Positions 9,577 to 47,418 of a stretch of 64,000 bases of DNA are shown here, one piece after another; position 1 is the stretch's first letter; each line of letters begins with the position of its first letter. The notes below the pieces were generated by a model. That model was given only the letters and a program-made list of their open reading frames with translations. It had not been told where the DNA came from and did no database searches. Made by a program: the position numbers and the translations under genes. This DNA comes from Myxococcales bacterium (GTDB lineage: Bacteria > Myxococcota_A > Polyangia > Polyangiales > Polyangiaceae): contig JACRDA010000093.1 in the NCBI GenBank assembly GCA_016212965.1, positions 1 to 64,000 on the forward strand, given 5' to 3'.

Positions 9577-9762
9577 CGCCGCGAGTGTACCGCCCGCGGC
9601 CGTCCCGGCTCCAGACCGTTCGGCAGTCCACGGTCGACGGCTCGATCGCTCGGGTAAACGCCCGCCTTGCCGCCACAGCCCCATGCCCCATCCTTGTGCC
9701 AGCGCACCCGACCCGCCGTCGCGGTCGCGATCGCCGGTCGTCCGAACGCGAGGAGAACCGAC

Positions 9763-21463: not shown

Positions 21464-21537
21464 GAGGTGAGCCGCACACGTGCGTCGCCGGTGGGTGGGG
21501 CCGGGCAACGGAGCCGCACCCCTCGCTGGAGGACGAG

Positions 21538-26346: not shown

Positions 26347-27434
26347 TCCGGCGGATCATCAAGACAGCCGTGTGCGAGGCGGCGACCTGGGCGCGCCTCG
26401 ACGCCTGGCTCGAAGAGCGCGGGCCCATCGTCATCGGTTACCACCGAGTGGTCGAGGACCCGCGGGCACCGGACCTCATGCCCGGCATCGCCATCGGCGT
26501 GGCCACGCTGGCGCGTCAGCTCGAGTACCTCGGTCGCCGGCGGCGCTTCGCCTCGCTCGACGAGGTCGGTGCGCTGCTGGCGCGCCGGGTCGACGCGCCC
26601 GTCTGCGCCGTCACTTTCGACGACGCCTACCGCGACGTGCTCACCCATGCCCTGCCGGTCCTCCGGCGCCTCGGCGTGCCGGCGGCTGTCTTCGTCGTGT
26701 CCGGCGCCGTCGCCGGCGGCAAGGCGCTGCTGCACGACCGGCTCTTCGCCGCCCTGTGCTGGCTGCGCGCCACCCGGCGCGAGCCGCCGCCCTCCGTGCC
26801 TGCGTCGCTGCGACCGCTGCTCGGCGCCGTGGCGCTGGGGCGCCGCCACCCCTACGAAGCGCTGCGCACCCTGCTCGAGTCGTGCGAGAACGAGCCGCTC
26901 GAGGCGACCGCGAGCTGCGTGGAGCGTGCCGCCGGGCCCGCCCTCGTCGCGCGCGAGCGGGAGAGCGCGACCGTCGACGGCGAGGCGCTGCGCGCGCTCT
27001 CGGAAGCCGGCCTGACGATCGGCTCGCACTCGCGCTCGCACCGGCGCCTGGTCGGCGAGAGCCTCCCCAGCCTGGCGCTCGAGGTCACGGCCTCGCGGCG
27101 CGAGCTCGCCGCCATGCTCGGGCGCCCGGTCGAGCACTTCGCCTACCCCGACGGCGACTTCGACGAGACGGTGGTGCGGGCGGTCGCCGACGCGGGCTAC
27201 GCCTATGCCTACACGGCGTGTCTGCACCGCGACCCCGAGGAGCCGATGCTCACCATTCCGAGGAGGATCCTCTGGGAGCAGTCGGCCGCCGGCTACGACG
27301 GCGCTTTCTCGGAGGCCATCTTCGGTCTGCAGACGCACTGCGGTGTGCCGTGGTTCGACCCGTGCAGGCGCGACCACGGACAGAGCGGCCTCGCCGCGAC
27401 CGCCCGCGCACGCCGCGCGCGGCTCGGCGCGTGA
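26343..27434 (+). CDS. polysaccharide deacetylase (NodB/CE4 family)
   Basis: 363 aa. NodB motif 1 TFDDAYRD (about 95-102; the usual Gly after DD is Ala) and motif 2 GSHSRSHRRL (His pair spaced by three) near 226, then YPDGDFDETVV near 263. These supply the Asp-His-His metal site. An insertion (about 150-215) lies between motifs 1 and 2. It starts with a short hydrophobic/amphipathic stretch without a clear signal peptide, so it may act in the cytoplasm or at the membrane. Predicted to remove N-acetyl groups from HexNAc residues of the polymer or its precursor. Confidence 0.88.
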   Translation: MIRRIIKTAVCEAATWARLDAWLEERGPIVIGYHRVVEDPRAPDLMPGIAIGVATLARQLEYLGRRRRFASLDEVGALLARRVDAPVCAVTFDDAYRDVLTHALPVLRRLGVPAAVFVVSGAVAGGKALLHDRLFAALCWLRATRREPPPSVPASLRPLLGAVALGRRHPYEALRTLLESCENEPLEATASCVERAAGPALVARERESATVDGEALRALSEAGLTIGSHSRSHRRLVGESLPSLALEVTASRRELAAMLGRPVEHFAYPDGDFDETVVRAVADAGYAYAYTACLHRDPEEPMLTIPRRILWEQSAAGYDGAFSEAIFGLQTHCGVPWFDPCRRDHGQSGLAATARARRARLGA

Positions 27435-27459
27435 GCCCGGAACACGAGGACCCGAACCG

Positions 27460-28941
27460 ATGGAGACGAGGCGCCCCGTGCCCTGGCTCGTCGCTGGCCG
27501 CCTGGGCGGCCAGGTCGGGACTTTCCTCATTCCGGTGGTGCTGGCGCGGGTGCTCGGCACCGACGACTTCGGCGCCTACCGGCAGCTCTTCCTCGTCTTC
27601 GGCTCGCTCTACCTCATCGCCCAGCTCGGGTTCGCCGAGTCGCTCTACTACTTCCTGCCGCGCGCCGGGCAGGCGAGCGGGCGCTACGTCGGCAACGCGC
27701 TGACGATCCTCGCGGGGGCCGGCCTGTGCTGCGCCCTCGCGCTCACGCTCGGGGCGCGGCCGCTCGCGGCTCTGCTCGGCAACGCGCGCATCGCCGCGCA
27801 CCTGCCCGCGATCGGCGTGTTCCTGTTCTGCATGCTGTGCTCGTCGGTGCTCGAGATCGTGCTCGTGTCCGAGCGGCGCTTCCGCACCGCCGCCGGCGCC
27901 TACTGCGTGTCCGATCTCGCGCGCGCCGTCCTCCTCGTGGCGCCCGCGGCGCTCGTGGGCAGCGTCTCCGCCCTGCTCGTGGGTGCGGTCGCCTTCGCCG
28001 TGCTGCGTCTGCTCGTCACCCTCGTCGTGGTCGGACGCCGCTACCGCGGCGGGTTCCGGCTCTCGCGCCCGCTCGCGGCGACGCAGTTCCGCTACACCTT
28101 CCCCTTCGCCCTGGCCGTCGTCATCGACACGGTGCAGGCGCAGGCGCACCTCTACGTCGTCTCGAACCAGTTCGACGTCGCCACCTTCGCGATCTACTCG
28201 GTGGCGTGCTTCCAGATCCCGCTCGTCGACTACGTGGCCACCGCGGCGGGCAACGTGCTCATGGTGCGCATGGGCCAGAGCCCGACCGACCGGCCGCTGG
28301 CGCTCGGGCTGTGGCGCGAGACCACGGCGCGCCTCGCCTACGTGCTCGTGCCGCTGCTCGCCCTCATCGTGGCGCTCGGGCCGGACCTCATCGTGTTCCT
28401 CTTCGGCACGCGCTACGCGGCGAGCGGGCCGCTGTTCGTGCTCGCGTCGCTGCCGATCCTGTGCGCGTGCCTGCCGAGCGACTCCTCGCTGCGGGCCGCC
28501 GGGGACACGTGGTTCCTGCTGGTGCAGGGCCTGCTGCGCCTGGTGGCGGCGGCGGTCCTGCTCGCGCTCCTGTTCGGGCCGCTCGGGCTCGTCGGTGCGG
28601 TCGTGAGCACCATCGGGGCGGCCGCCGTCGCCAAGGTGGCGGCGGTGGCTCGGGTCGCGCACCACCTCGCGGGGCCCCTCGGCGAGCTCCTGCCGTGGGG
28701 CCGCCTGCTCGCGACGCTCGGTGCGAGCGCCGGGGCAGGCGCAGCGGCGTTCGTCCTCGCGAGCGCCGCAGCGAACGCGCCGCGCCTCGCGCGGCTCGCG
28801 GCGAGCGGCACGGTCTTCCTCGTCGTCTACCTGGCGCTCGGCGCGCGCCTCGGCCTGGGTGCGCCCGTGCGCGAGCTCTACCGGCGCTGTGGCGCGCTCC
28901 TGCGCCGGCGCACGACGGAACGTACCGGAAGGAGGTCCTAG
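27460..28941 (+). CDS. Wzx-type polysaccharide flippase
   Basis: 493 aa with about 12-14 hydrophobic helices over the whole length. RLGGQVGTFLIPVVLARVLGTDDFGAYRQLF at the N-terminus is the standard opening of Wzx/MurJ-like flippases. Moves lipid-linked repeat units across the inner membrane for the Wzy-like polymerase. Start follows ACGAGGA. The next gene follows after 2 bases. Confidence 0.93.
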   Translation: METRRPVPWLVAGRLGGQVGTFLIPVVLARVLGTDDFGAYRQLFLVFGSLYLIAQLGFAESLYYFLPRAGQASGRYVGNALTILAGAGLCCALALTLGARPLAALLGNARIAAHLPAIGVFLFCMLCSSVLEIVLVSERRFRTAAGAYCVSDLARAVLLVAPAALVGSVSALLVGAVAFAVLRLLVTLVVVGRRYRGGFRLSRPLAATQFRYTFPFALAVVIDTVQAQAHLYVVSNQFDVATFAIYSVACFQIPLVDYVATAAGNVLMVRMGQSPTDRPLALGLWRETTARLAYVLVPLLALIVALGPDLIVFLFGTRYAASGPLFVLASLPILCACLPSDSSLRAAGDTWFLLVQGLLRLVAAAVLLALLFGPLGLVGAVVSTIGAAAVAKVAAVARVAHHLAGPLGELLPWGRLLATLGASAGAGAAAFVLASAAANAPRLARLAASGTVFLVVYLALGARLGLGAPVRELYRRCGALLRRRTTERTGRRS

Positions 28942-28943
28942 TC

Positions 28944-30083
28944 ATGGCGTGGACGACCGTGAGCAGCGGTGGGCCCCGGACGCCCGCGCGGCGGCGCGCG
29001 CCGGACGGAGTCGTGACGCGCGTGGCCCGCAACCCCGACGAGCTCGCCGAGCTCGCGCCCGTCTGGGACGGGCTCGCGGCTCGGCCGGGCACGGGCGTCA
29101 CGCAGGATCGCGCCTGGAGCGAGGCCTACGCCGCGACCTTCGGGCCCCCGGGCGGGCTCGAGGTCCTCGCGGTGACGAGTCCGGTGCACGGGATGGCCAT
29201 GGCGCCGCTCGAGCGCCGCGACGGCGTGCTCGGGCGGCTCGAGCTGCCCGGCGTGAAGGAGCTCTACGAGCCGATGGACCTGCTCTACGAGGACGCGGCG
29301 GCGCTGCCGGCGCTCGCAGAGGCCCTGCTCCGCATCGGGCGCCCCATCTTCCTGCGCCGCGTGCCGGCCGACTCCCCCGTCGTGGCGGCGCTGCGGCAGG
29401 CGTCCGAGGGGCGGGGGGTCTTCGTCGCGCGGCCGGTGGTCGCCGCGCCCTTCATCGCCCTCGACGCGGGCTGGCTCGAGCCGGACAAGAAGCTCGTCGG
29501 TCGCTACCGCTCGGATCTGCGGCGCGCTCGACGGCATGCCACGGCGCTCGGAACCGTCCGTTGCGAGGTTCTCGCTCCCACCCCCGAAGAGGTCGATCGC
29601 CTGCTCGACGAGGTCTACGAGGTGGAGGCGGCAAGCTGGAAGGGCGCTGCCGATAGCGCGCTCTCGATCGATCGGGCGCGGGGCCTCTTCTACCGCCGCT
29701 ACGGGCGCGCCGCCGCTCGCAAGGGGATCCTGCGCGTGGCCTTCCTGCGCATCGACGAGCGGGCGGCAGCCACGCAGCTGGCGGCCGAATGGGACCACGG
29801 CTACTGGCTGCTCAAGATCGGCTATCGCGACGAGTTCGCGCGCTGCTCGCCGGGCAGCCTGCTCGTGGCGGAGACCCTCCGCTACGCCGCGGAGCGCGGC
29901 CTGTCTCATTACGAGTTTCTCGGCGGCGTCGAGCCGTGGACCCGGACGTGGACCGACGCCGAGCGGGCCTGCGTCTCGGTGCGCGTGTACCCCTACGGCT
30001 GGGCGGGTATGGCTGCCTTGGCGCTCGACGCCGGCGAGCGGGCGGCCCACGACGTCGGTGAGCGAATGGGGGTGCGGTCGTGA
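28944..30083 (+). CDS. GNAT/FemAB-like acyl or aminoacyl transferase (second copy)
   Basis: 379 aa. Same double-GNAT architecture as the gene at 25171 but only distantly similar: SDLRRARRHATALG near 192, AAWKG-like EAASWKGAADSALS near 230, and EWDHGYWLLKIGYRDEFARCSPGSLL near 279, ending HYEFLGGVEPWTRTW. GGAGG lies 8 bases before the ATG. Probably modifies the polymer or a nucleotide-sugar with an acyl or amino-acid group; donor and acceptor unknown. Overlaps the next gene by GTGA. Confidence 0.83.
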   Translation: MAWTTVSSGGPRTPARRRAPDGVVTRVARNPDELAELAPVWDGLAARPGTGVTQDRAWSEAYAATFGPPGGLEVLAVTSPVHGMAMAPLERRDGVLGRLELPGVKELYEPMDLLYEDAAALPALAEALLRIGRPIFLRRVPADSPVVAALRQASEGRGVFVARPVVAAPFIALDAGWLEPDKKLVGRYRSDLRRARRHATALGTVRCEVLAPTPEEVDRLLDEVYEVEAASWKGAADSALSIDRARGLFYRRYGRAAARKGILRVAFLRIDERAAATQLAAEWDHGYWLLKIGYRDEFARCSPGSLLVAETLRYAAERGLSHYEFLGGVEPWTRTWTDAERACVSVRVYPYGWAGMAALALDAGERAAHDVGERMGVRS

Positions 30084-30943
30084 ACGCCGCGGTCGAGAAG
30101 GTCCTGCGGCCGCTGTGGCAGCCGGTCGCCGCTCGGGCGGCGCGCGCCTACATCGCCGGGCCGGAGCTCTCCGACGGCGTGCGGGTGTGCCGCGAGCTGT
30201 GGCAGCGCGGTCTCGCCAGCACGCTCGGGTTCTGGGACGGGGCGGGCGAGTCGCCGCGGCAGGTGATCGACGTCTACCTCGCGTCGCTCGCGGCCATGGC
30301 GTCGCTCGATGTCGCCGCGGACCAGTCCTTCGACTGCTACCGGTCCGTCAAACCCGACGCCTTCGGGTTCGACGCGGCGCTGCTCGGCGAGGTCGTCCTT
30401 CGCGCGCACGCGACCGGGCGCCGCGTCCACTTCGACTCGCTCGGGCCGGAGGGCGTCGAGCGCACGTTCGCGCTCATCGCCGGCGCGGCGGCGCGCCACG
30501 ACGACTTCGGCTGCACCCTGCCCGGCGGGTGGCGGCGCAGCGTCGCCGACGCGGACCGCGCGGTGGAGATGGGCCTCTCCGTGCGCGTGGTCAAGGGGCA
30601 GTGGCCCGACCTCGAGGGGCCACCGATCGACCCCCGCGCCGGCTTCCTCGGCGTCGTCGACCGGCTCGCCGGCCGCGCTCGCCACGTGGGGGTGGCGACG
30701 CACGACCTCGAGCTCGGCCGCGAGGCGCTGCGCCGCCTGCGGGAACGCGGGACGCCCTGCAGCCACGAGCTGCTCACCGGCCTGCCGTCGCGCCAGGCCC
30801 TCGCCGAGGCCCGCACGCTGGGCACGCCCGTGCGCTTCTACGTCGCCTACGGCAATGCCTGGCTGCCCTACGCGCTGTCGCAGGCGGCTCACAAGCCACG
30901 CATCCTGTGGTGGATCGTGCGCGACACGCTGCTGCGCAAATGA
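30080..30943 (+). CDS. proline-dehydrogenase-like TIM-barrel protein
   Basis: 287 aa. The (beta/alpha)8 PRODH pattern is recognisable: VHFDSLGPEGVE, SVRVVKGQW (canonical RLVKGAYW), HVGVATHDLEL, HELLTGLPSRQA and RFYVAYGNAWLPYAL (canonical RVYVPYGxxWxPY). At the place where true proline dehydrogenases have the Arg-Arg pair that holds the proline carboxylate, this one reads SQAAHKP, so the substrate may not be proline. About 287 aa is also short. It is the last gene of the operon and overlaps the GNAT gene; its role in polysaccharide production is unknown. FAD dependence is inferred only from family. Confidence 0.75.
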   Translation: MNAAVEKVLRPLWQPVAARAARAYIAGPELSDGVRVCRELWQRGLASTLGFWDGAGESPRQVIDVYLASLAAMASLDVAADQSFDCYRSVKPDAFGFDAALLGEVVLRAHATGRRVHFDSLGPEGVERTFALIAGAAARHDDFGCTLPGGWRRSVADADRAVEMGLSVRVVKGQWPDLEGPPIDPRAGFLGVVDRLAGRARHVGVATHDLELGREALRRLRERGTPCSHELLTGLPSRQALAEARTLGTPVRFYVAYGNAWLPYALSQAAHKPRILWWIVRDTLLRK

Positions 30944-34724: not shown

Positions 34725-35058
34725 GGGCAACCGCTAAAGCAAGCGCGGTGCCGAACGTTATTGCTAGTCATTCCAACTAGTTAAACTTGCGGGTGTCACC
34801 CACCCGGAGACATCCGTCGCCCCGGGAGCGACGCCCGGGTGTCGGGCCGACACCCGATGGCGGGTAGGTGATCATCCTGGCTGACCGACCCGGGTATGCC
34901 GGAATGCCCCCTGCCCGGCGAGCGGGTAGCTTGTGGTTAGCGGCGGACGGCGTCCTCGCGCCAGCGCTTCGCGCGGGCGCCCCAGGTGTCCGGACCGCGG
35001 GCGTCGCGGCGCAGCGACGGGGGCGAAGCCTGCCCGATGTCCGGGCGAGGGGCCTGAG
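34725..35058. promoter_or_regulatory. divergent intergenic region with three CGGGTGTC sites
   Basis: The 334-base spacer between the lipoprotein and first asnB gene has no gene. Near the lipoprotein it is AT-rich (about 34755-34790). The octamer CGGGTGTC occurs at 34790-34797 and 34836-34843, and inverted as GACACCCG at 34849-34856. The last two are the outer parts of a perfect 10-1-10 inverted repeat (34836-34856). Beside it is a 6-7-6 repeat CGTCGC / GCGACG (34815-34820, 34828-34833). This looks like an operator array controlling one or both genes. No clear sigma-54 site. Confidence 0.5.
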
Positions 35059-36969
35059 ATGTGCGGCATTGCTGGCATCATGAGTCTCGACGGGACGCCC
35101 GTCTCCGCCGTGGACCTCGGCTCGATGTGCGCCGCGATGCGGCACCGCGGGCCCGACGACGAGGGCTTCCACGTCGATGCCGACGTCGGCCTCGGGATGC
35201 GCCGGCTCAGCATCATCGATCTCGCCGGCGGCCATCAGCCGATCTCGAACGAGAACGGTCGCGTGTGGGCCGTGCTCAACGGCGAGATCTACAACTACCG
35301 CGAGCTGCGCGCCGACCTCGAGCGCCGCGGCCACCGCTTCGCCACCGCGAGCGACACCGAGACCATCGTTCACCTGTACGAGGACGAGGGCAGTCGCTGC
35401 GTGGAGCGCCTGCGCGGCATGTTCGCCTTCGCGGTGTGGGACGCGCCGAAGAGGACGCTGCTCGTCGCGCGCGACCGGCTGGGCATCAAGCCCCTGTACT
35501 TCGCCTCCACCGGGGCGCGCCTGTGCTTCGCCTCCGAGCTCAAGGCGCTTTGCGCGCTGCCCGACCTCCCGCGCCGCGTCGACCCCGCCGCCCTGAACCA
35601 CCTGCTCGCCTTCCTCACCACGCCCGCCGACCGCAGCATCCTCGCCGGCGTTCGCAAGCTCGAGCCGGCGCACCTCTTCGTGGCCGAGCCCGGGCGTGAG
35701 CCGCGCATCGAGCGCTACTGGGACGTGCGCTTCGAGCCCGACACGCGCTCCTCGCCCGCGGAGCTCGAGGCCGAGCTCGTGCACCGGCTCGAGGAGGCGA
35801 CGCGCCTGCACATGGTGAGCGACGTGCCCGTGGGCGCCTTCCTCAGCGGGGGCATCGACTCGAGCACGGTGGTCGCCATGATGGCGCGCGCCAGCAGCCG
35901 GCCCGTCAAGACGTTCAGCGTGGGCTTCGCCGAGCCCGACTTCGACGAGCTCGGCTACGCCCGCCTGGTCGCTCGAGCCTTCGGCACCGAGCACCACGAG
36001 ATGGTGCTCGAGCCCGACGTGCTGCCGTCGCTCGAGGACCTGGTGTGGCACCTCGACGAGCCCTTCGGGGACTCGTCGGCCATCCCGACCTACCTCGTGT
36101 CGAAGATGGCGGGCGCCGAGGTCCGCGTGGTGCTGTCGGGCGACGGCGGCGACGAGCTCTTCGCCGGCTACGAGCGCTACCTCGTCGAGAAGCGCGAGCG
36201 CCGCTTCGACCCGCTGCCGCGCGCGGTGCACCGCCTCTCGGGGCAGGTCTCGGCCGCGCTGCCGTCCTGGGCACGGGGACGCCGCCTGCTCGGGCACCAC
36301 GCTCTCGTGGGCAGCGAGCGCTACCTCGACGCGGGGACGCTGTTCCCGCTCGCCGAGCGGCGGCGGCTGATCGGCAGCGACCTCGTGGCCGCGCTCGACG
36401 CCGACGAGCCGGCGCGGCTCGCGACGGCCCTCTTGCGCCCGGGAGCGCACTGGCTGTCCGCGCTGCAGGAGTTCGACCTCCACGCCTACCTGCCCCTCGA
36501 CATCCTCACCAAGGTCGACCGCATGAGCATGGCGCACTCGATCGAGGCGCGCGTGCCGCTGCTCGACCACGAGCTCGTCGAGCTCTGCGCCCGCATCCCG
36601 CCCGACCTGCAGCTCCACGGCACGACCAGCAAATACCTGTTGAAGCGCGCCATGCGCGGCGTGCTGCCCGAGTCGATCCTCACCCGCCCGAAGCAGGGCT
36701 TCGCGGTCCCGCTCGGGCGCTGGTTCCGCGGCAAGCTCCACGACGTCGCGCGCGACGTGCTGCTCTGCGACACCGCGCGGCAGCGCGGCTTCCTCGAGCC
36801 CGAGGCCGTGCGCGAGGTCCTCGACGCACCCCTGCGCGGGCGCGACCTCGATCTGCACACCTGGACGTTGCTCAACTTCGAGCTCTGGTGCCGACAGTAT
36901 CTCGACGGCGGCGGCCGGGCGCCCAGCCACGCGACCATCCCGGCCGTCACCCTCGCGGCGAGCGCATGA
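35059..36969 (+). CDS. asnB: asparagine synthase-type amidotransferase (first copy)
   Basis: 636 aa. N-terminal Ntn glutaminase with Cys2 (MCGIAG), RHRGPD, NGEIYNY and SDTETIVH; C-terminal synthetase with the PP-loop FLSGGIDSS near 261, LSGDGGDELFAGY and RPKQGFAVPLGRW. Complete on both domains. In polysaccharide loci such proteins usually amidate uronic acids or other acids on the glycan rather than making asparagine (known for Francisella WbtH). First gene of the second polysaccharide block, overlapping the next gene by ATGA. Confidence 0.93.
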   Translation: MCGIAGIMSLDGTPVSAVDLGSMCAAMRHRGPDDEGFHVDADVGLGMRRLSIIDLAGGHQPISNENGRVWAVLNGEIYNYRELRADLERRGHRFATASDTETIVHLYEDEGSRCVERLRGMFAFAVWDAPKRTLLVARDRLGIKPLYFASTGARLCFASELKALCALPDLPRRVDPAALNHLLAFLTTPADRSILAGVRKLEPAHLFVAEPGREPRIERYWDVRFEPDTRSSPAELEAELVHRLEEATRLHMVSDVPVGAFLSGGIDSSTVVAMMARASSRPVKTFSVGFAEPDFDELGYARLVARAFGTEHHEMVLEPDVLPSLEDLVWHLDEPFGDSSAIPTYLVSKMAGAEVRVVLSGDGGDELFAGYERYLVEKRERRFDPLPRAVHRLSGQVSAALPSWARGRRLLGHHALVGSERYLDAGTLFPLAERRRLIGSDLVAALDADEPARLATALLRPGAHWLSALQEFDLHAYLPLDILTKVDRMSMAHSIEARVPLLDHELVELCARIPPDLQLHGTTSKYLLKRAMRGVLPESILTRPKQGFAVPLGRWFRGKLHDVARDVLLCDTARQRGFLEPEAVREVLDAPLRGRDLDLHTWTLLNFELWCRQYLDGGGRAPSHATIPAVTLAASA

Positions 36970-38036
36970 ACCACCGACCGACGATCGCGCTCTGCGCGCC
37001 GAGCTCCGACATCCTCGGTGGGCAGTCGGTGCAGGCGGCGACGCTGTGCCGCGCGCTCCGCGCCGACGGCTGGTCCGTCGACTTCGTACCGGTGAATCCG
37101 CGCTTTCCGCGCGGGCTCGGCTGGCTGCGCCGCATCCCCTACGCCCGCACCGTGCTCAACGAGGCGCTCTACGCGGCCGCGTGCCGCGCCCTTCGCCGCG
37201 CCGACGTGGTCCACATCTTCACGGCCTCGTACGTCTCGTTCCTGCTCGTCGCCGTGCCGGCGTTGCTCGCGGCGCGGCGCTTCGGCAAGCGCACCATCCT
37301 CAACTACCACAGCGGCGAGGCCGACGATCACCTGCGCCGCTACGGGCCGCTCGTGCACCCGTGGCTCCGGCTCGCCGACACGATCGTCGTGCCCTCCGCG
37401 TACCTCGAGCGGGTGTTCGCGCGCCACGGTCACGTGGCCGCGGTCGTCCCGAACGCGATCGACGTCGAGCGCTTCCGTTTCCGAGAGCGTTCGACCCTGC
37501 GACCGCTGTGCCTGTCGAACCGCAACCTCGAGCCGCACTACCGCGTCGCGGACATCGTCGCGGCGCACGCCCTCTTGTGCCGCGCCCACCGCGACGCCGA
37601 GCTCGTCATCGCGGGCACCGGCAGCGAGCGCGAGCGCCTGGCGAGCCTCGCCAGCACCCTGCCACCCGGCGCGGCGCGCTTCGTCGGGCGCGTGGAGCCC
37701 GAGCGCATGCCGGCCCTCTACGACTCGTGCGACGTGTTCGTCAACGCCTCGGTGGTCGACAACCAGCCGCTCTCCATCCTCGAGTCCTTCGCCGCGGGGC
37801 TGCCGGTCGTCACGACCGCCACCGGCGACATCGAGGCGATGGTGCGGCACGGCGACACGGGCTTGCTCGTGCCGCCGCGGCAGCCGGGCGCCCTCGCCGG
37901 CGCCGTCGAGTCGTTGCTCGCCGCCCCGGTCCGCGCGCGCGACATGACCCGCCGCGCGCGCGCCGAGGTCGAGCGTTACCGCTGGCCCGCGGTGCGGCAG
38001 CGCTGGGCAGCGGTCTATGCCGGAGGTGCAGCGTGA
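36966..38036 (+). CDS. GT4-family glycosyltransferase
   Basis: 356 aa. LGGQSVQAATLCRAL in the N-terminal domain, NYHSGEADDHLRRYG in the middle, VVPNAIDVERFRF, then FVGRVEPERMPALYDSCDVFVNASVVDNQPLSILESFAAGLPVV with the family's E-x7-E-like motif. Cytoplasmic GT-B enzyme, donor unknown. Overlaps genes on both sides by 4 bases. Confidence 0.92.
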   Translation: MNHRPTIALCAPSSDILGGQSVQAATLCRALRADGWSVDFVPVNPRFPRGLGWLRRIPYARTVLNEALYAAACRALRRADVVHIFTASYVSFLLVAVPALLAARRFGKRTILNYHSGEADDHLRRYGPLVHPWLRLADTIVVPSAYLERVFARHGHVAAVVPNAIDVERFRFRERSTLRPLCLSNRNLEPHYRVADIVAAHALLCRAHRDAELVIAGTGSERERLASLASTLPPGAARFVGRVEPERMPALYDSCDVFVNASVVDNQPLSILESFAAGLPVVTTATGDIEAMVRHGDTGLLVPPRQPGALAGAVESLLAAPVRARDMTRRARAEVERYRWPAVRQRWAAVYAGGAA

Positions 38037-40063
38037 GGCTCGAGAGGCTCATGACGATGGGTCCGGCCGAGCTCGCCGGACGCTCGCGCCAGGCGCTCTT
38101 CGGTGCGCTCGAGCGCGTGTCGGGCACCGATCTCGCGCGCCCGCTGCCGGACGGCTTCGTCGCGCGCTGGTGCCGCGCCGCTCGGCCGACTGCGCGCTTC
38201 TTCCTCGGCGCGACCGACGCCGCGACGCCGCGCGTTCTCGCCGCGCTCCTGCCCGAGGCCCGTGCGGCCATCCTCGGGGCCGCCGAGGAGCTCCTCGCCG
38301 GACGCTTCGCGCTGCTCGGCTACCGCGACCTCGACTTCGGCCGGCCCGTCGACTGGCACCTCGACCCGGTCTCGGGCCAGCGCGCCCCGCGCCGGCACTT
38401 CACCCGGCTCGATCCGCTCGACGTGGCCGCGGTGGGCGACGTCAAGGTCACCTGGGAGCTCAGCCGTCACCAGTGGCTCGTCACGCTCGCCCAAGCCTAT
38501 GCCTTCGAGCACGACGAGCGCTACGCCCGCTCGGCGCTCGACCACCTCGACGCCTGGATCGAGTCGAATCCGCCCGGTCGAGGCATCCACTGGACGAGCA
38601 GTCTCGAGATCGCGCTCCGCCTCGTGTCGTGGAGCTGGGTCCTGCACCTCTGCGCGCGCTCGGCTGCCCTCGAGCCGGCGCGCCGCGCGCGCATCGTGCG
38701 CATGCTGGCGGCGCACGCCACCCACGCGGCGCGCTACCTGTCGCACTACTTCTCACCGAACACCCACATCACCGGCGAGGCGCTCGGGCTCTACTACGCC
38801 GCGGCGTGCCTCGACGAGCTGCCGCGGGCGCGGCGCTGGCGTGCCGAGTCGGAGCGCATCCTCGCGCGCGAGATCGACCGGCAGGTACTGCCCGACGGGG
38901 CGCACTTAGAGCTGTCGCCGAGCTACGCGCGCTACACGGCCGAGATGTACCTGCACTGGCTTGTGCTCGCCGAGCGGCTCGGGCACCCGGTGCCGGACGG
39001 CGTGCGCGCTGGCCTCGTGCGCCTGCTCGACTTCCTGCTCGGCGTGGCGCTCCCCGACGGCTCGATGCCGGCGATGGGCGACGCCGACGGCGGCTCGCTC
39101 CTGCCGCTCGCGCGCCGCGGGCGCGACGATCTGCGGGGCGTGTTCTCCACGGCGGCTGCCGTGCTCGCGCGCCCCGACTACGCGTGGGCGGCGCGGGGCC
39201 TGCAGCCCGAGACGCTGTGGCTGCTCGGCCCGGCGGGCGCCGAGCGCTTCCGCGCGCTCCGTCCGGCGCCACCCGCGACCTCGCCCGCGCGCGTGTTCCG
39301 CGACGGCGGCGTGGCCGTCGTGCGCGACAGCTGGCGCGACGACGCGCACCAGTTGCTCTTCGACGTGGGGCCGCTCGGCTGTCCGGTGTCGAGCGGGCAC
39401 GGCCACGCCGACTTGCTCGCGATCCAGGGTGCCTTCTTCGGTGCGCCCCTGCTCGTCGACGCCGGCACCTACACGTACGCCCGAGGCCCGTGGCGCGACG
39501 CCTTCCGCTCGAGCCAGTTCCACGGCACCGTGACCGTCGACGGCCTGTCGCAGGCCGAGCCCACCGGCCCGTTCGCGTGGCGCGAGCGACCCCGGGCGCG
39601 GCTCGAGCGCTGGGAGTCCTCGCCTGGCCGGGTGCTCGTCTCCGCATCCCACGGGGCCTACCGTCGCCTCGCCGATCCGGTGGAGCACCGGCGCACGGTC
39701 CGCTTCGTCGCCCCCGACCGCTTCCTCGTCGAGGACGTCCTCGAAGGCGCCGCGGAGCACCTCGTCGAGCTGCGCTTCCAGCTCGCAGCGGGCGCGCGGC
39801 TCGAGCGTCGAGGGCCCTGGCTCGAGATCACGGTCGGGGACGGTCGCGGGGTCGATCTCAGGACCGCCGCCCGGGTCCCGCTCGCGCTCGCGCTCCACGC
39901 GGGAGAGCTCGAGCCGCCACTCGGCTGGGTGTCGCCCGACTACGGACAGCGGCTCGCGGCGCCGCTCGTCGTCTTCTCGGCCCGGGCGCAACTGCCGCTC
40001 CGCGTCGTCACCGTGCTGCGGCCCCGCCGGCGTCCGCCCGACGCCACGGGGACAGGAGCCTGA
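38033..40063 (+). CDS. heparinase II/III-family protein
   Basis: 676 aa. An (alpha/alpha)-toroid N-terminal domain with WHLDPVSGQRAPRRHFTRLDP near 104 and FSPNTHITGEALGLYYAA near 241 (the Asn/His catalytic region of polysaccharide lyases). A beta-sandwich C-terminal half has DVGPLGCPVSSGHGHADLL near 443 and VDAGTYTYARGPWRDAFRSS near 467. No signal peptide at the GTG start (GTGA overlap, GGAGGT upstream), as in many export-operon homologues. Predicted to cleave uronic-acid glycosidic bonds by beta-elimination, perhaps trimming or quality-controlling the polymer; catalysis is unproven. Confidence 0.88.
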   Translation: MRLERLMTMGPAELAGRSRQALFGALERVSGTDLARPLPDGFVARWCRAARPTARFFLGATDAATPRVLAALLPEARAAILGAAEELLAGRFALLGYRDLDFGRPVDWHLDPVSGQRAPRRHFTRLDPLDVAAVGDVKVTWELSRHQWLVTLAQAYAFEHDERYARSALDHLDAWIESNPPGRGIHWTSSLEIALRLVSWSWVLHLCARSAALEPARRARIVRMLAAHATHAARYLSHYFSPNTHITGEALGLYYAAACLDELPRARRWRAESERILAREIDRQVLPDGAHLELSPSYARYTAEMYLHWLVLAERLGHPVPDGVRAGLVRLLDFLLGVALPDGSMPAMGDADGGSLLPLARRGRDDLRGVFSTAAAVLARPDYAWAARGLQPETLWLLGPAGAERFRALRPAPPATSPARVFRDGGVAVVRDSWRDDAHQLLFDVGPLGCPVSSGHGHADLLAIQGAFFGAPLLVDAGTYTYARGPWRDAFRSSQFHGTVTVDGLSQAEPTGPFAWRERPRARLERWESSPGRVLVSASHGAYRRLADPVEHRRTVRFVAPDRFLVEDVLEGAAEHLVELRFQLAAGARLERRGPWLEITVGDGRGVDLRTAARVPLALALHAGELEPPLGWVSPDYGQRLAAPLVVFSARAQLPLRVVTVLRPRRRPPDATGTGA

Positions 40064-40068
40064 CAGCC

Positions 40069-41994
40069 ATGTGCGGCATCGCCGGCATCGTCGCGCTCGA
40101 TCCGCGGGCGCAGCCGAGCGCGGAGCGCCTGGTGCGTATGCGGGACGCGCTCGCCCACCGGGGGCCCGACGGCGCCGGCACGTGGATCGAAGGACCCGTC
40201 GGCCTCGCGCACCGGCGCCTCGCCATCGTCGACGTCGCGGCCGGCGCCCAGCCGATGTCGAACGAGGACGGGCGCGTGTGGATCGCCTTCAACGGCGAGA
40301 TCTACAACCACGCCGCGCTGCGCCCGGCGCTCGAGCGCCGCGGCCACCGCTACCGCACGAGGAGCGACACCGAGACCATCGTGCACCTCTACGAGGAGCA
40401 CGGCCCCCGCTGCGTCGAGCGACTCCAGGGCATGTTCGCCTTCGCCCTCTGGGACTGTGCCCGAGAGCGGCTGCTGCTCGCGCGCGACCGTCTCGGCATC
40501 AAGCCGCTCTACTACGCGCTCACCGCCGACGAGCTCCTCTTCGCCTCGGAGGTCAAGGCGCTCGTCGCCGCAGGGGTCGGGGTCGCGCTCGCCGACGAGG
40601 TCCTGCCGGAGTTCCTCGCGAGCGGCTTCGTGGCCGGCGAGCAGACGCTGTTTCGCGGCGTGAAGAAGCTCCTGCCCGGACGCATCCTCACCTGGACGCG
40701 CGCCCATGGCGTCGAAGAGGCGCGCTACTGGCGGCCCCCCACCCGGACCGACGCCCGGCCGACCGAGCCGCTCGCCGTCGCGGCGCGCGACCTCCGCGCG
40801 CGCCTCGCGGCTTGCGTGAAGAGCCACCTCATGAGCGACGTGCCGCTCGGCGTGTTCCTCTCGGGAGGCCTCGACTCGACGGGCATTGCCGCGCTCGCGG
40901 CCCGCGAGGTGACGGGCAAGCTCAACACCTTCTCCGTCGGTTTCGACGCCCCGGAAGGCAACGAGCTCTCCTACGCGCGGCTCGCGGCCGACGCCATCGG
41001 CACCGAGCACCGCGAGGTCGTCGTGTCCCCGGCCGAGTTCAAGGCGGCGCTGCCGCGGCTCGTGTGGCACGAGGACGAGCCGCTCGCCTTTCCTTCGAGC
41101 GTCCCGCTCTACTTCGTGTCGCGGCTGGCGCGGGACCACGTGAAGGTCGTGCTCACCGGCGAGGGCGCCGACGAGCTCTTCCTCGGCTACAACCGCTATC
41201 GCGTGACGGCCTGGAATCGGCGCCTCGGGGCGCTCTACTGGGGCGCCACGCCCGGCTGGCTGCGCCGGGCCGTCGCGCGCGCGGCTCCGGCCTTGAGCGG
41301 CCCGGGACGGCGCTGGGTGCGCCGCAGCTTCCTCGTGCTCGAGCCGAGCGCGCGCAGCCTCTTCTGCGAGAACTTCGCGGTGTTCCCGAGCGAGCAGCAA
41401 GCGGAGCTGCTCGTCGACGGGCGCCTGCTCGCCGCGCGCGACCCGTTCGCGGCGTCGCTCCGAGCCTTCGCCGCCGCCGACGGCGACGAGCTCGACGCCA
41501 TGAGCCGCGCCGACCTGGAGACCTACCTCGTCGAGCTGCTCATGAAGCAGGACCAGATGAGCATGGCGGCGTCGGTCGAGAGCCGCGTGCCCTTCCTCGA
41601 CCACGAGCTGGTCGAGCACGCCATGCAGATCCCGTCCGGGCTCAAGCTGCGCGGGCTGCGCACGAAGGCCGTCCTGCGCGCCGCGCTCGCCGACGTCGTG
41701 CCGCGCGCCATCCTCACCCGCCCCAAGTGGGGCTTTCCCGTGCCGCTGGCGCGCTGGATGCGCGGGCCGTTCCGGCCGTTCGTGCACGAGCTCGTCCTGT
41801 CGCCGCGCGCGCGCGCGCGCGGCCTCTTCCGCGACGCCGCCCTGCGGGCGCTCGTCGCCGAGCACGAGAGCGGACGGCGCGATCACAGCGCGCGGCTGTG
41901 GCTGCTCTCGGGCCTCGAGCTCTGGCACCGGCTGTTCGTCGACGGGGAGGCGCCCGCGCTCGTCGCCGAGCGGTCCTTCGCGGCGGCCGCCTGA
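40069..41994 (+). CDS. asnB: asparagine synthase-type amidotransferase (second copy)
   Basis: 641 aa. Same architecture as the gene at 35059: Cys2 glutaminase, HRGPDGAGTW, NGEIYNH, SDTETIVH, PP-loop FLSGGLDST, LTGEGADELFLGYNRY, RPKWGFPVPLARWM. The two copies are clearly diverged (for example GDGGDELFAGY against GEGADELFLGY), so they may amidate different substrates. ATG six bases after the heparinase-like gene ends, with CAGGAG upstream. Part of the second polysaccharide operon. Confidence 0.93.
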   Translation: MCGIAGIVALDPRAQPSAERLVRMRDALAHRGPDGAGTWIEGPVGLAHRRLAIVDVAAGAQPMSNEDGRVWIAFNGEIYNHAALRPALERRGHRYRTRSDTETIVHLYEEHGPRCVERLQGMFAFALWDCARERLLLARDRLGIKPLYYALTADELLFASEVKALVAAGVGVALADEVLPEFLASGFVAGEQTLFRGVKKLLPGRILTWTRAHGVEEARYWRPPTRTDARPTEPLAVAARDLRARLAACVKSHLMSDVPLGVFLSGGLDSTGIAALAAREVTGKLNTFSVGFDAPEGNELSYARLAADAIGTEHREVVVSPAEFKAALPRLVWHEDEPLAFPSSVPLYFVSRLARDHVKVVLTGEGADELFLGYNRYRVTAWNRRLGALYWGATPGWLRRAVARAAPALSGPGRRWVRRSFLVLEPSARSLFCENFAVFPSEQQAELLVDGRLLAARDPFAASLRAFAAADGDELDAMSRADLETYLVELLMKQDQMSMAASVESRVPFLDHELVEHAMQIPSGLKLRGLRTKAVLRAALADVVPRAILTRPKWGFPVPLARWMRGPFRPFVHELVLSPRARARGLFRDAALRALVAEHESGRRDHSARLWLLSGLELWHRLFVDGEAPALVAERSFAAAA

Positions 41995-42063: not shown

Positions 42064-43287
42064 ATGCGAATCCTGTGGATCAAGATAGGCGGCCTCTGGC
42101 CGGTCGATCGCGGCGGGCGGCGGCGGAGCTTCGAGACGGTGCGCGCCCTCGCCGAGCGGCACGCGGTGACCGTCGCCACGACGCACGTCGCCGAGGACGA
42201 GGTCGCCGGCCTGCGCGGCGCCCTGCCAGGGAGCGAGGTGCTCTCGTGGCCGTGGCAGATCCCGAAGCACGGCTCGGCCGGGTTCGCCCTCGCCCTCGGG
42301 CGCTCGTGGGCGTCGGAGCTGCCGGTCGACATCTGGCGCTGCGTGGTGCCGGAGCTCCGCCGCGAGGTCGCAGAGCGGCTGCGGCGCGGAGCCTGCGACG
42401 TGTGCGTGGTCGACTTCCTCGCGGCGGCACCCAACGTGTCGCTCCGCTCGGCGGGCCCGCTCGTGCTCTTCTCGCACAACGTCGAGCACCAGATCTGGCG
42501 ACGCCTGGCCAAGGTCGAGACGCGGCTCGCCAGGCGTGCGCTGCTCGAGGTCGAGTGGCGCAAGATGCGCCGCTACGAGGACCGCGTCGTAGGCGCAGTG
42601 GCCCGCACCATCGCGGTGTCCGAGGCGGACCGTGCGATGCTCGCCAGCCGTGTGCCCGGCGCGAGCGTGTGCGCCGTGCCGACCGGCGTCGATCTGTCCT
42701 ACTTCCGGTCGGAGGGCGCCTCCGAGGCGCCGGGCTCGATCGTCTTCGTGGGTGCCATGGACTGGTACCCGAACGAGGATGCGGTCCTCCACTTTGCAGC
42801 GGAGATCCTGCCGCGCGTGCAGCGGGCCGTGCCCGACGCGACGCTGACGGTGGTGGGCCGCAACCCGAGCGCGCGCCTGCGCGCCCTCGGCCCGGCGGTG
42901 CGCGTGACCGGCACGGTGGACGACGTGCGACCGCATCTGGGCGCGGCGAGCGTCGTGGTCGTGCCCCTGCGCGTCGGCGGCGGCACGCGGCTCAAGATCT
43001 TCGAGGCGCTCGCCATGCAGAAGGCGGTCGTCTCCACCGCCATCGGCGCCGAGGGGCTGCCGCTCCGGACGGGCGAGCACTTCGTCTGCGCCGACGAGCC
43101 CGCGGCCTTCGCCGACGCGGTCGTCGCGCTCTTGCGCGACCCCGGGCGGCGCACGGCCCTCGGCGTGGCCGGCAGGGGCCTGGTGGAGACGCGATTCGGA
43201 TGGGCGGCCGTCGCCCGTGCATTCGAGCGAGAGCTCGAGGAGGTGCATCATGCACGTAGCAGTCTTCGGAATGGGATACGTCGGTAG
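42064..43287 (+). CDS. glycosyltransferase, GT4-like (WcaI/PEP-CTERM Stp1-like)
   Basis: 407 aa GT-B enzyme. Starts RILWIKIGGLWPVDRGGRRRSFETVRAL, has FSHNVEHQIWRRLAK near 140 and VPTGVDLSYF near 206, and ends with FVGAMDWYPNEDAVLHFAAEILP and PLRVGGGTRLKIFEALAMQKAVVST. This is the pattern of sugar transferases found with exported glycans. No membrane segments. Overlaps the dehydrogenase gene by 38 bases. Confidence 0.9.
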   Translation: MRILWIKIGGLWPVDRGGRRRSFETVRALAERHAVTVATTHVAEDEVAGLRGALPGSEVLSWPWQIPKHGSAGFALALGRSWASELPVDIWRCVVPELRREVAERLRRGACDVCVVDFLAAAPNVSLRSAGPLVLFSHNVEHQIWRRLAKVETRLARRALLEVEWRKMRRYEDRVVGAVARTIAVSEADRAMLASRVPGASVCAVPTGVDLSYFRSEGASEAPGSIVFVGAMDWYPNEDAVLHFAAEILPRVQRAVPDATLTVVGRNPSARLRALGPAVRVTGTVDDVRPHLGAASVVVVPLRVGGGTRLKIFEALAMQKAVVSTAIGAEGLPLRTGEHFVCADEPAAFADAVVALLRDPGRRTALGVAGRGLVETRFGWAAVARAFERELEEVHHARSSLRNGIRR

Positions 43288-46219
43288 CGTGACGGCCGCG
43301 AAGCTCGCTGCCTCCGGGCACGAGGTGATCGGCGTCGACCTCGACGCGAGCAAGGTCGCGAGCATCGAGCGCGGGCGCCCGCCGGTGACCGAGCCGGGGC
43401 TCGACGACCTGATGCACAAGGCCTGGGCGGCCGGGCGCTTGCGGGCGACCACCTCGGTGAAGGCGGCGCTCGAGCACGCCGAGCTGGCGCTCATCTGCGT
43501 CGGGACGCCGACGGGCGCGACCGGCGGGCCGGACCTCGGCGCGCTCGAGCGGGTGGGCGTCGAGATCGGTGCCGCGCTCGGCAACCGGATGGACTGCGCG
43601 GTCGTGCTGCGCAGCACCGTGCTGCCGGGCACGACCGAGGGCGAGCTCGCGGCCGCCCTCGCGGCCGGCGCGCCGCACCAGGACTTTCGGGCCCCGCTCG
43701 CCTTCGTGCCGGAGTTCATGCGCGAGGGCGCGGCGCTCCGGGACTTCACCTGCCCGCCCTTCTCGCTGCTCGGCTGCTCGGACGCGCAGACGGACCAGAA
43801 GCTGCGGCGCCTGTTCGTCGACGTCGACGCGCCATTCGTGGCGGCGACCATCCGCGTGGCCGAGACCGTGAAGTACGCCGCCAACGCCTACCACGCGCTC
43901 AAGATCTGCTTCGCCAACGAGATCGGCGCCCTCTGTGCTGCCCGCGGGGTCGACGGCGACGAGGTGATGCGCATCTTCCGCCTCGATCGCAAGCTCAACG
44001 TCTCGGACGCGTACCTGCGCCCGGGCTTCGCCTTCGGCGGCTCGTGCCTCGGCAAGGACGTGCGCGCGCTCGCCTACGCGGCCGAGGCCGGCGGCGTCAC
44101 GCTGCCCATCATCACCTCGATGCTGCCCTCGAACGACGCGCACGTGAACCGCGCCGTCGCGGCCATCGTGCGCACGGGCGAACGCAAGGTGGGTGTCCTC
44201 GGTCTGGCCTTCAAGCCGGGCACGGACGACGTGCGCGAGAGCCCGCTCGTGACGCTCGTCACGCGCCTGCAGGATGCCGGCTGCGAGGTGCGCGTCTTCG
44301 ACCGCGTGCTGAAGCAGGCGACCCTCATCGGGCGCAACCGCGAGTTCCTCGAGACGCACATCCACGACTTCGGCAAGGTGCTGTGCAGCGACGTGCGCGA
44401 GCTCGTGGCCCACGCCCGCACGCTGGTGCTCGGCCACGACGGTCCCGATGCCGACCAGGCCCGGTCGCTCGCCCGCCGCGGGTGCGAGATCATCGATCTG
44501 ACCCGCGGGACGCCGCCGGTCCCCGTCGAGGACGTCGAGGCGAAGCGCGGCGACCGCGGCGCTCGCGCGACGGTGATGCGTCGGCTTCTCGGCCTGCTCT
44601 GCGTGGGTACGGCCCTCGGCTGCTCCTCGGTGGCGCCGTTCGCGCCGACGGATGCCGGCAGCGCGGCCGGAGTGCCGCCGCCGACGGCCGCGCCGAGCTA
44701 CGCGGCGGCGGCTCCGAGCGACGTGCAGAGCGTCGAGCTGCCGCCTCCGGGGCTCGGCAGCGGTCCCATGCGTACCCTCGCCGAGGACGCCGACCTGCAG
44801 CGCGCGCTCGACGACGCACGGCCGGGCGACGTGCTCGTGCTCGCATCGGGTGCGAGCTACGTCGGGCCGTTCGTGCTGCCGCGCAAGGTCGGCGATGGCT
44901 GGATCACCATCGCCGGACCGACGCCGAGCGCGCGCGGCGTCCGCGTCGCTCCCGCGCAGGCGGGCGCGATGCCGAAGCTCTCGGCCGCAGCGGGGGCGGT
45001 GCTCTCGGCCGAGCCGGGCGCCCACCACTACCGCTTCGTCGGGCTCGAGATCCGACCGACCCCGGGCGCCTTCCTCCACAACCTCGTCGTGCTCGGCGAC
45101 GCGAGCATGGCCGCGGACGCCGTGCCCCACCACCTGTCCTTCGAGGGCTGCTATCTGCACGGGGATCCGGCGCTGGGTACGCGCCGGGGCGTGGCGCTGA
45201 ACTCGGCCTACACCGCCGTCGTCGACTCCTACCTCGCCGACTTCAAGGAGCAGGGGGCCGACTCGCAGGCGATCGCCGGCTGGGCCGGGCCGGGACCGTT
45301 CCTCATCGAGAACGACTACCTCGAGGCCGCCGGCGAGAACGTGATGTTCGGCGGCGCCGACGCCCCCGACGCGACGCGCATCCCGTCCGACATCGTGGTT
45401 CGGGGCAACCACTTCTCGAAGCCCCTCGCGTGGAAGCGCGGCGAGAGCGGTTACGGCGGGGAGCGCTGGAGCGTGAAGAACATCTTCGAGCTCAAGAGCG
45501 CGCGGCGCGTCTTCGTGGCCGACAACCTCTTCGAGCACAACTGGCCGGACTCCCAGAACGGCTTCGCCATCCTCTTCACCGTGCGCAACCAGGAGGGGGG
45601 CGCGCCGTGGTCGACCGTCGAGGACGTGACCTTCCGCGGCAACATCGTGCGCGGCAGCGCCTCGGCGGTGAACGTGCTCGGGCGCGACGACGCGCGCGGC
45701 GGCGCCAGCGGTCGCGCGCAGCGGATCCTCGTGCGCGACAACCTGTTCCTCGACATCGGGGGCGCTCGCTGGGGCGGCGGAGGCACGCTCTTCCAGCTGC
45801 TCGAGGGCACGCGCGACGTCGTGATCGAGCACAACACGGCGTTCCACGCCGGCAACGTGATCACGGCCGACGGTGCGCGGCACGAGGGCTTCGTCTTCCG
45901 CGACAACGTCGTGGCGGTCAACCGCTACGGCATCTTCGGCAGCGGCGCCGGGAGCGGCACGTCGGCGCTCGCCGCGTTCTTCCCGGGGGCCGACGTGCGC
46001 CGCAACGTGTTCGCCGGCGGGCGCGCCGAGGACTACCCCGCCGACAACTTCTTCCCGGCGACGCTCGACGCGGTCGTGCGCGTCGAGCCGGGCAGTGCCG
46101 TCCGCCTCGTCGCCGACGGGTTCCGGCGCGCCGGCACCGACGGCAAGGATCTCGGCGCCGACCCGGCGGCGCTCGTCGCGGCCGTGCGCGCCGGCGGCGG
46201 CGGGGAGTCGTCGCCGTGA
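43250..46219 (+). CDS. AlgD-like nucleotide-sugar 6-dehydrogenase in frame with a beta-helix lipoprotein
   Basis: One 989-codon frame. Residues 1-430 are a complete dehydrogenase: NAD motif FGMGYVGSVTAA, STVLPGTTEGEL, and Cys266 in RPGFAFGGSCLGKDVRAL, then KVGVLGLAFKPGTDDVRESPLV. This wording is closest to GDP-mannose 6-dehydrogenase (AlgD), although UDP-glucose dehydrogenase cannot be excluded. No stop follows; the frame continues through about 20 linker residues to an internal Met443 that begins a lipoprotein signal (LGC lipobox) and then a right-handed beta-helix. Either a true fusion or a lost stop between two coupled genes; an out-of-frame TGA overlaps the internal ATG. GAGGAGG six bases before the ATG sets the start. 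Confidence 0.8.
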   Translation: MHVAVFGMGYVGSVTAAKLAASGHEVIGVDLDASKVASIERGRPPVTEPGLDDLMHKAWAAGRLRATTSVKAALEHAELALICVGTPTGATGGPDLGALERVGVEIGAALGNRMDCAVVLRSTVLPGTTEGELAAALAAGAPHQDFRAPLAFVPEFMREGAALRDFTCPPFSLLGCSDAQTDQKLRRLFVDVDAPFVAATIRVAETVKYAANAYHALKICFANEIGALCAARGVDGDEVMRIFRLDRKLNVSDAYLRPGFAFGGSCLGKDVRALAYAAEAGGVTLPIITSMLPSNDAHVNRAVAAIVRTGERKVGVLGLAFKPGTDDVRESPLVTLVTRLQDAGCEVRVFDRVLKQATLIGRNREFLETHIHDFGKVLCSDVRELVAHARTLVLGHDGPDADQARSLARRGCEIIDLTRGTPPVPVEDVEAKRGDRGARATVMRRLLGLLCVGTALGCSSVAPFAPTDAGSAAGVPPPTAAPSYAAAAPSDVQSVELPPPGLGSGPMRTLAEDADLQRALDDARPGDVLVLASGASYVGPFVLPRKVGDGWITIAGPTPSARGVRVAPAQAGAMPKLSAAAGAVLSAEPGAHHYRFVGLEIRPTPGAFLHNLVVLGDASMAADAVPHHLSFEGCYLHGDPALGTRRGVALNSAYTAVVDSYLADFKEQGADSQAIAGWAGPGPFLIENDYLEAAGENVMFGGADAPDATRIPSDIVVRGNHFSKPLAWKRGESGYGGERWSVKNIFELKSARRVFVADNLFEHNWPDSQNGFAILFTVRNQEGGAPWSTVEDVTFRGNIVRGSASAVNVLGRDDARGGASGRAQRILVRDNLFLDIGGARWGGGGTLFQLLEGTRDVVIEHNTAFHAGNVITADGARHEGFVFRDNVVAVNRYGIFGSGAGSGTSALAAFFPGADVRRNVFAGGRAEDYPADNFFPATLDAVVRVEPGSAVRLVADGFRRAGTDGKDLGADPAALVAAVRAGGGGESSP
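44576..46219 (+). CDS. right-handed beta-helix lipoprotein (alternative internal start)
   Basis: If translated from ATG 44576 this is a 547 aa lipoprotein: signal MRRLLGLLCVGTALGC with lipobox Cys16, a Pro/Ala linker, then a parallel beta-helix (AAGVPPPTAAPS linker; RFVGLEIRPTPGAF, LSFEGCYLHGD, FLIENDYLEAAGENVMFGG, FRGNIVRGSASAVNVLG, RILVRDNLFLDIGG, VIEHNTAFHAGNVI, FRDNVVAVNRYGIFG). Beta-helix proteins in polymer loci include lyases and alginate-type C5-epimerases, but no catalytic motif is certain. No strong Shine-Dalgarno precedes this ATG. It overlaps the GT2 gene by GTGA. Confidence 0.65.
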   Translation: MRRLLGLLCVGTALGCSSVAPFAPTDAGSAAGVPPPTAAPSYAAAAPSDVQSVELPPPGLGSGPMRTLAEDADLQRALDDARPGDVLVLASGASYVGPFVLPRKVGDGWITIAGPTPSARGVRVAPAQAGAMPKLSAAAGAVLSAEPGAHHYRFVGLEIRPTPGAFLHNLVVLGDASMAADAVPHHLSFEGCYLHGDPALGTRRGVALNSAYTAVVDSYLADFKEQGADSQAIAGWAGPGPFLIENDYLEAAGENVMFGGADAPDATRIPSDIVVRGNHFSKPLAWKRGESGYGGERWSVKNIFELKSARRVFVADNLFEHNWPDSQNGFAILFTVRNQEGGAPWSTVEDVTFRGNIVRGSASAVNVLGRDDARGGASGRAQRILVRDNLFLDIGGARWGGGGTLFQLLEGTRDVVIEHNTAFHAGNVITADGARHEGFVFRDNVVAVNRYGIFGSGAGSGTSALAAFFPGADVRRNVFAGGRAEDYPADNFFPATLDAVVRVEPGSAVRLVADGFRRAGTDGKDLGADPAALVAAVRAGGGGESSP

Positions 46220-47418
46220 GCGCCACGCTGCTCGCCGTCGCCTTCTGGTCGTCGCTCGGGCTGCTCGCCTACACGTACCTCGGCTACCCCGTGCTGCTCT
46301 GGGTCTGGGCCCGGCTGCGCACGCGGCCGGTGCGGCGCGACCCCGCACTCTTGCCGTCCGTGACCGTGCTCGCGGTCGTCCAGGACGAGGCCGCGCAGAT
46401 CGAGCGACGCATCCTGAACCTGCTCGATCTCGACTATCCACGCGACCTGCTCGAGCTCGTGATCGCCTCCGACGGCTCGCGCGACGACACCGTGGCGCGG
46501 GCGCGGGCGTACGCCCACGAGGGCGTCCTCGTGCTCGATTTCGCCGAGCGGCGCGGCAAGCCGGCGGCGCTGGCCGATGCCGGCCGCGTCGCCCGCGGCG
46601 AAGTCCTGGTCCTGTGCGACGCCCGGCAGCGCATCGAGCCCCAGGCGCTGCGCCTGCTCGTGGCGCCGTTCGCCGACCCGCGCGTGGGCGTCGTGAGCGG
46701 TGCGATCGTGCTCGGCCGTACGGGGGCGGCCGTGGGCCGTGGCCTCGGCCTCTACGCTCGTTACGAGACCTTCGTGCGGGCCTGCGAGAGCCGCATCGAC
46801 TCCATGCTCGGGGCGACGGGCGCGCTCTACGCCGTCCGGCGCCGGTTGTTCGCGCCGCTTCCGATCGACACCTTGGCCGACGATCTGGTCCTGCCTTGCC
46901 GCGTCCTGCGAGGCGGCTACCGCGTCGTGCTCGAGGCCGAGGCGCGGGCGGTGGACGAGGCGCCCCGAAGCGCAAGAAAAGAGTTTGCGCGCAAAGTTCG
47001 CACCCTCGCCGGGGTCTGTCAGCTCTTCGCGCGCGAGCGCTGGCTCCTCGTGCCGTGGCGCAATCGGGTCTGGCTGCAGACCCTTTCCCACAAGGGGCTG
47101 CGGCTGCTCGGGCCGTGGCTCATCCTGGTCCTCGTGGCAGCGAGCGCCGTCCACCCCGGGCCGTTCTACCGCGTGGCGTTCGGGGCCGAGCTCGTCTTCT
47201 TCGCCACGGCGCTGCTCGGTCTCGGCGCACAGCGCCTCGGGCGTGGTGGACCGCTCTCGGTGCCCTACACCTTCTGCCTGCTGCAGGTCGCCGCGGTGGT
47301 GGGCCTCTTGCGCTTCGCGACTCACCGGCAGCCCGTGTGCTGGAAGCCGGTGCCCGCCAAGCCCGGCCCCGCACCGAGCGAAGATTCGCTCGCCTCCGGA
47401 CGCTGGCCCCCGCGGTGA
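46216..47418 (+). CDS. membrane GT2-family glycosyltransferase
   Basis: 400 aa. One N-terminal TM, then a GT-A catalytic domain: VIASDGSRDDT near 96, CDARQ (D-x-D position) near 138, GATGALYAVRRRLF near 199 and TLADDLVLPCRVL near 221, followed by three TM segments. Resembles processive or hyaluronan/cellulose-type GT2 enzymes, but the processivity motif QxxRW is not obvious. It begins with a GTG in a GTGA overlap and is the last gene of the second polysaccharide block. Confidence 0.88.
   Translation: MSATLLAVAFWSSLGLLAYTYLGYPVLLWVWARLRTRPVRRDPALLPSVTVLAVVQDEAAQIERRILNLLDLDYPRDLLELVIASDGSRDDTVARARAYAHEGVLVLDFAERRGKPAALADAGRVARGEVLVLCDARQRIEPQALRLLVAPFADPRVGVVSGAIVLGRTGAAVGRGLGLYARYETFVRACESRIDSMLGATGALYAVRRRLFAPLPIDTLADDLVLPCRVLRGGYRVVLEAEARAVDEAPRSARKEFARKVRTLAGVCQLFARERWLLVPWRNRVWLQTLSHKGLRLLGPWLILVLVAASAVHPGPFYRVAFGAELVFFATALLGLGAQRLGRGGPLSVPYTFCLLQVAAVVGLLRFATHRQPVCWKPVPAKPGPAPSEDSLASGRWPPR

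Follow-up and report, generated by a model that had tools for sequence, protein, structure and literature searches.

A single open reading frame in a Myxococcales genome joins a complete AlgD-type nucleotide-sugar dehydrogenase to a lipoprotein signal peptide and a predicted right-handed beta-helix, and we favour, at a probability of about 0.6, a genuine gene fusion that would give rise to a precursor with a working internal lipoprotein signal. The frame lies within the window, which is the whole stretch of 64,000 nucleotides analysed here (contig JACRDA010000093.1, positions 1 to 64,000). In favour of a fusion, our comparisons show one shared frame in two species, conservation of both halves and separate, overlapping genes in a genome of another family (G051). 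Against it, a cytosolic enzyme ahead of a signal peptide makes for an awkward topology, and the fusion is carried by two genomes, with its ancestral state read from a single operon copy in another family. The features concerned are the following:

38033-40063, + strand: heparinase II/III-like lyase, same operon
42064-43287, + strand: upstream neighbour, GT4 glycosyltransferase, TIGR03087-like, overlapping the dehydrogenase start
43250-46219, + strand: single open reading frame of 989 aa (dehydrogenase, linker, lipoprotein signal, beta-helix), from translation and the same frame in the sister species
43250-44509, + strand: AlgD-type nucleotide-sugar 6-dehydrogenase with three domains and the FGGSCLxKD motif, from Pfam, TIGR03026 and the match to 1mfz
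44510-44575, + strand: linker of 22 residues, variable and charged, TPPVPVEDVEAKRGDRGARATV, from translation and from frame-0 codon and GC3 signals
44573-44578, + strand: GTGATG, a relic-like GTGA stop/start overlap with TGA 44574-44576 in the +1 frame; compare the overlap in G051
44576-44620, + strand: putative internal lipoprotein signal peptide MRRLLGLLCVGTALG, preceding the lipobox Cys, from translation and the Cys column in relatives
44621-46216, + strand: predicted mature lipoprotein, a low-complexity linker and then a right-handed beta-helix of lyase/epimerase-like fold, from profile and fold matches
46216-47418, + strand: downstream neighbour, GT2 glycosyltransferase, in a GTGA overlap with the stop of the fusion

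From the ATG at 43250 to the TGA at 46219, translation yields 989 residues with zero in-frame stops. The length of the frame is weak evidence, because the GC-rich DNA of the window carries many long stop-free frames. The feature that is not due to chance is a dehydrogenase without a stop of its own, conserved in a second species. This is the sister Polyangiaceae MAG SJ101 (contig JADLAB010000453.1, L042; G001), an independent assembly with 5.3% DNA difference, which carries the identical uninterrupted 989-codon frame at the same place. A sequence-only reading of this DNA had described the uninterrupted frame, a GTGATG in which an out-of-frame TGA lies over the ATG at 44576, and a complete dehydrogenase followed by a lipoprotein signal and a beta-helix. 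The frame and the GTGATG were found as described, with the TGA standing in the +1 frame, and domain matches, lipobox and fold agree with the proposed composition.

The complete dehydrogenase occupies residues 1-420 of the fusion. Pfam searches returned PF03721, PF00984 and PF03720 in that order, all above cut-off and within residues 1 to about 393, and the NCBIfam model TIGR03026 matched with 344.8 bits (cut-off 189.8). In a search against solved structures, GDP-mannose 6-dehydrogenase AlgD (1mfz/1muu/1mv8) proved alike over residues 1-418 (1mfz, E = 2e-105), including the active-site Cys in the motif FGGSCLxKD, and was far ahead of any UDP-glucose dehydrogenase, the next-best structure reaching E = 2e-61. 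These matches identify the half as AlgD-type, closer to AlgD than to UDP-glucose dehydrogenases. AlgD, however, is a free enzyme (436 aa in the solved structure), whereas the window protein runs on into linker, signal peptide and beta-helix. Elsewhere in the window (9667-11079) lies a further nucleotide-sugar dehydrogenase gene from this superfamily, adjoining a gene for an NAD-dependent epimerase.

By inspection, the residues from M443 (the ATG at 44576) onwards, MRRLLGLLCVGTALG followed by CSS, fit a lipobox, and the segment has the Arg/Lys n-region, short hydrophobic stretch and lipobox Cys of a lipoprotein signal. The Cys is residue 458 of the fusion (codon 44621-44623), and its column is identical across 13 aligned relatives. 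Lipoprotein signals are assumed to act at the N-terminus. In the primary product the signal begins well inside the chain, at residue 443, and it would be N-terminal only if translation began internally at 44576. Most relatives of the beta-helix half are stand-alone proteins, and those whose N-terminus was read each start with a signal of their own, in most cases of the lipoprotein type.

A structure model of this half gave a right-handed parallel beta-helix at moderate to low confidence (pLDDT 55); the model of the entire fusion, at pLDDT 31, was too poor for use. The best fold matches of the former were the epimerase modules AlgE4/AlgE6, PL6 alginate lyases and the Vibrio lyase RbmB (VIA Z 22-25, rmsd 3.3-4.3, 314-367 positions aligned). 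The family profile picked up solved PL31/PL6 alginate lyase chains as partial matches only, among them 6kfn with E = 7e-8 over just 55 positions, and the score for Pfam Beta_helix in the fusion remained below cut-off. These matches suggest a polysaccharide lyase/epimerase-like fold; a common fold is no proof of activity. The half thus appears to be alike in fold to PL6/PL31 alginate lyases and the mannuronan C-5 epimerases AlgE, but is just 12-16% identical to the fold matches in sequence.

Unless it shifts frame, a ribosome initiating at 43250 meets no stop before the 989-residue chain is complete, and every ribosome making the dehydrogenase must make the beta-helix as well. A dehydrogenase free of the tail would, barring a frame shift, be obtainable only by cleavage. 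It is conceivable, if rather unlikely, that the fusion is made but that ATG 44576 (or GTG 44573) is the start of much, or even all, of the lipoprotein that functions, which would leave the fusion as a by-product or an anchored form. Both species retain the ATG together with a complete lipoprotein signal, the relatives are mostly free-standing lipoproteins, and some coupled genes use weak starts; coupled downstream genes may carry weak ribosome sites (PMC3711429). However, no Shine-Dalgarno sequence was detected at ATG 44576 in either species: complementarity to the 16S rRNA there is -1.7 kcal, which equals background, compared to -13.1 kcal at the dehydrogenase start, -7.6 kcal at the next gene and -5.6 kcal at the beta-helix start of G051. 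RNA folding around this ATG is ordinary, with no reduction relative to background, and frame 0 has no nearby stop for re-initiation. Equally weak Shine-Dalgarno sites occur, however, at about 15% of the 27 overlapping starts that were collected as candidates from about 0.3 Mb of the genome, so that the evidence speaks against internal initiation without being decisive. The earlier proposal that both products arise from one frame by this route survives as a possible addition to the fusion; as a full account it suffers from the missing Shine-Dalgarno site and from a dehydrogenase that would remain attached to its tail.

The same reading had also considered an assembly frameshift near the end of the dehydrogenase, in which case the genes would really be separate and meet in a GTGA overlap. 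GTGATG does resemble an ordinary overlap, and G051 has such an overlap. The comparison with SJ101, however, gave 158 substitutions and 0 indels over 2970 nt, and an assembly frameshift is rejected because this independent assembly shows the same frame without an indel. The differences are biased to third positions along the entire frame, and pN/pS values of about 0.23 for the dehydrogenase and about 0.25 for the beta-helix point to purifying selection on both halves. Codon log-likelihoods marked frame 0 as coding across the join in SJ101 and, in the window, as far as 44563. The only room for a hidden slip is at about 44564-44573 (about ten bases), where SJ101 differs in bases and not in length. 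We therefore regard a sequencing or assembly slip as very improbable, while a true fusion, also envisaged in the sequence-only reading, gains support at the DNA level from the frame shared by two species. The comparison with orthologues that had been proposed as a check showed a fused frame in SJ101 and two genes in the distant G051. Marginally less probable still is programmed +1 frameshifting that terminates the dehydrogenase at TGA 44499 or TGA 44574, with frame-0 read-through giving the fusion: both species carry the two TGAs in the +1 frame, but no slippery motif was seen by eye, the bases directly 5' of 44574 differ between the two species, and +1-frame stops are common all along the gene (20).

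G051 belongs to the same order as the window but to a different family. Its operon, GNAT-Wzx-AsnB-GT-HepII/III-AsnB2-GT4-DH-bh-GT2, matches the window in order over ten genes at 42-61% identity, the dehydrogenase and beta-helix genes being 52% and 55% identical to the two halves. In contrast to the one frame of the window, G051 has two genes: the TGA of the dehydrogenase overlaps the GTG start (GTGA) of a separate beta-helix gene, which has GGAG upstream as its Shine-Dalgarno site. The window retains GTGA at 44573-44576, with the TGA shifted by one frame. Most likely, a small frame change at this overlap fused both genes in the ancestor of the genus. If the last dehydrogenase codons gained one base net (or changed in an equivalent way), the dehydrogenase TGA would have fallen out of frame, with read-through as the result; this is the simplest history, which we infer from one outgroup operon of another family. 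The earlier idea that the upstream frame had 'slipped' may thus hold as natural history, in view of the overlap in G051, but not as an error. The gene would then be an example of a four-base overlap turning into a fusion through a single small frame change. Fusion of neighbouring genes is an already known process, found here with an odd topology, and homologues of adjacent genes occur fused in other genomes (PMC3711429).

The genus is represented by two genomes, both with the fusion. Relatives of the beta-helix half are few both in the class (318 genomes) and in the phylum (379 genomes), and among those whose flanks were examined only G051 has an adjacent dehydrogenase. Occurrence in one genus only would suit a recent, slightly harmful accident, tolerated as one half is dispensable and decaying, but with pN/pS near 0.25 in both halves and no stop or indel over 5% divergence, we consider this most improbable. 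A seemingly identical beta-helix gene was found in MAGs of different families (L043, JAKLKA010000088.1; L044, JAKLJY010000262.1; L059, G348:C180), which suggests a contig shared through mis-binning.

Taken together, the missing stop, the weak internal start and the invariant lipobox Cys favour a precursor with its N-terminus inside that is cut before C458. In such a fused precursor, the dehydrogenase part would fold in the cytosol and the internal signal would engage Sec, upon which the beta-helix would be exported and lipidated at C458. Signal peptidase II would most likely cleave before C458, so that a short hydrophobic tail would stay on the dehydrogenase, and internal initiation could be a second source of free lipoprotein. 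Because the lipobox Cys column is invariant in 13 relatives, the exported, lipidated beta-helix is probably still the functional form. More tentatively, at somewhat less than even odds, the product may be a polyprotein in which Lgt and signal peptidase II process an internal signal behind a complete cytosolic enzyme, giving a 1:1 ratio of dehydrogenase to surface lipoprotein, or else a membrane-tethered dehydrogenase. FbcH of Bradyrhizobium, a cytochrome b/c1 polyprotein, is likewise a single precursor from which cleavage at an internal signal peptide releases an exported protein. In FbcH, however, the signal is of type I and follows a membrane protein, whereas that of the fusion is a lipoprotein signal behind a soluble enzyme; a search of the open-access literature for this precedent gave nothing usable. 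With a whole folded enzyme before the lipoprotein signal, the conserved frame would offer a natural test of Sec, Lgt and signal peptidase II with internal signals.

The neighbours scanned comprise Asn-synthase-like amidotransferases, several glycosyltransferases, GNAT, Wzx, a Wzy-like ligase and a heparinase. Among the genes scanned, the neighbourhood is by sequence a Wzx/Wzy-type exopolysaccharide cluster that resembles XrtA-type loci. The likeness to alginate loci drawn earlier is borne out for the enzyme family, with AlgD closest, and for the fold, and the heparinase-like lyase that it named lies at 38033-40063; among the neighbours scanned, set against the alg8/alg44/algK/algE/algG genes of an alginate biosynthesis operon, it is not apparent. 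A dehydrogenase supplying a uronic-acid sugar nucleotide for the exopolysaccharide and a surface beta-helix protein that trims, binds or epimerises the resulting polymer would fit together.

Within one operon of this cluster, a glycosyltransferase gene and the heparinase II/III gene lie between two Asn-synthase-like amidotransferase genes (34933-36966 and 40069-41991), whose products share about 43% identity; the duplication appears to be old, as both copies are kept in G051. At 20503-22626, a YvcK/CofD-like match (TIGR01826) is confined to the C-terminal half of a frame of 708 aa, whose first 368 residues are unmatched. Three frames of the exopolysaccharide cluster (26279-27700, 28721-29653 and 30080-30940) gave no Pfam match, and some of them may be spurious, out-of-frame ORFs that arise by chance where DNA is GC-rich.
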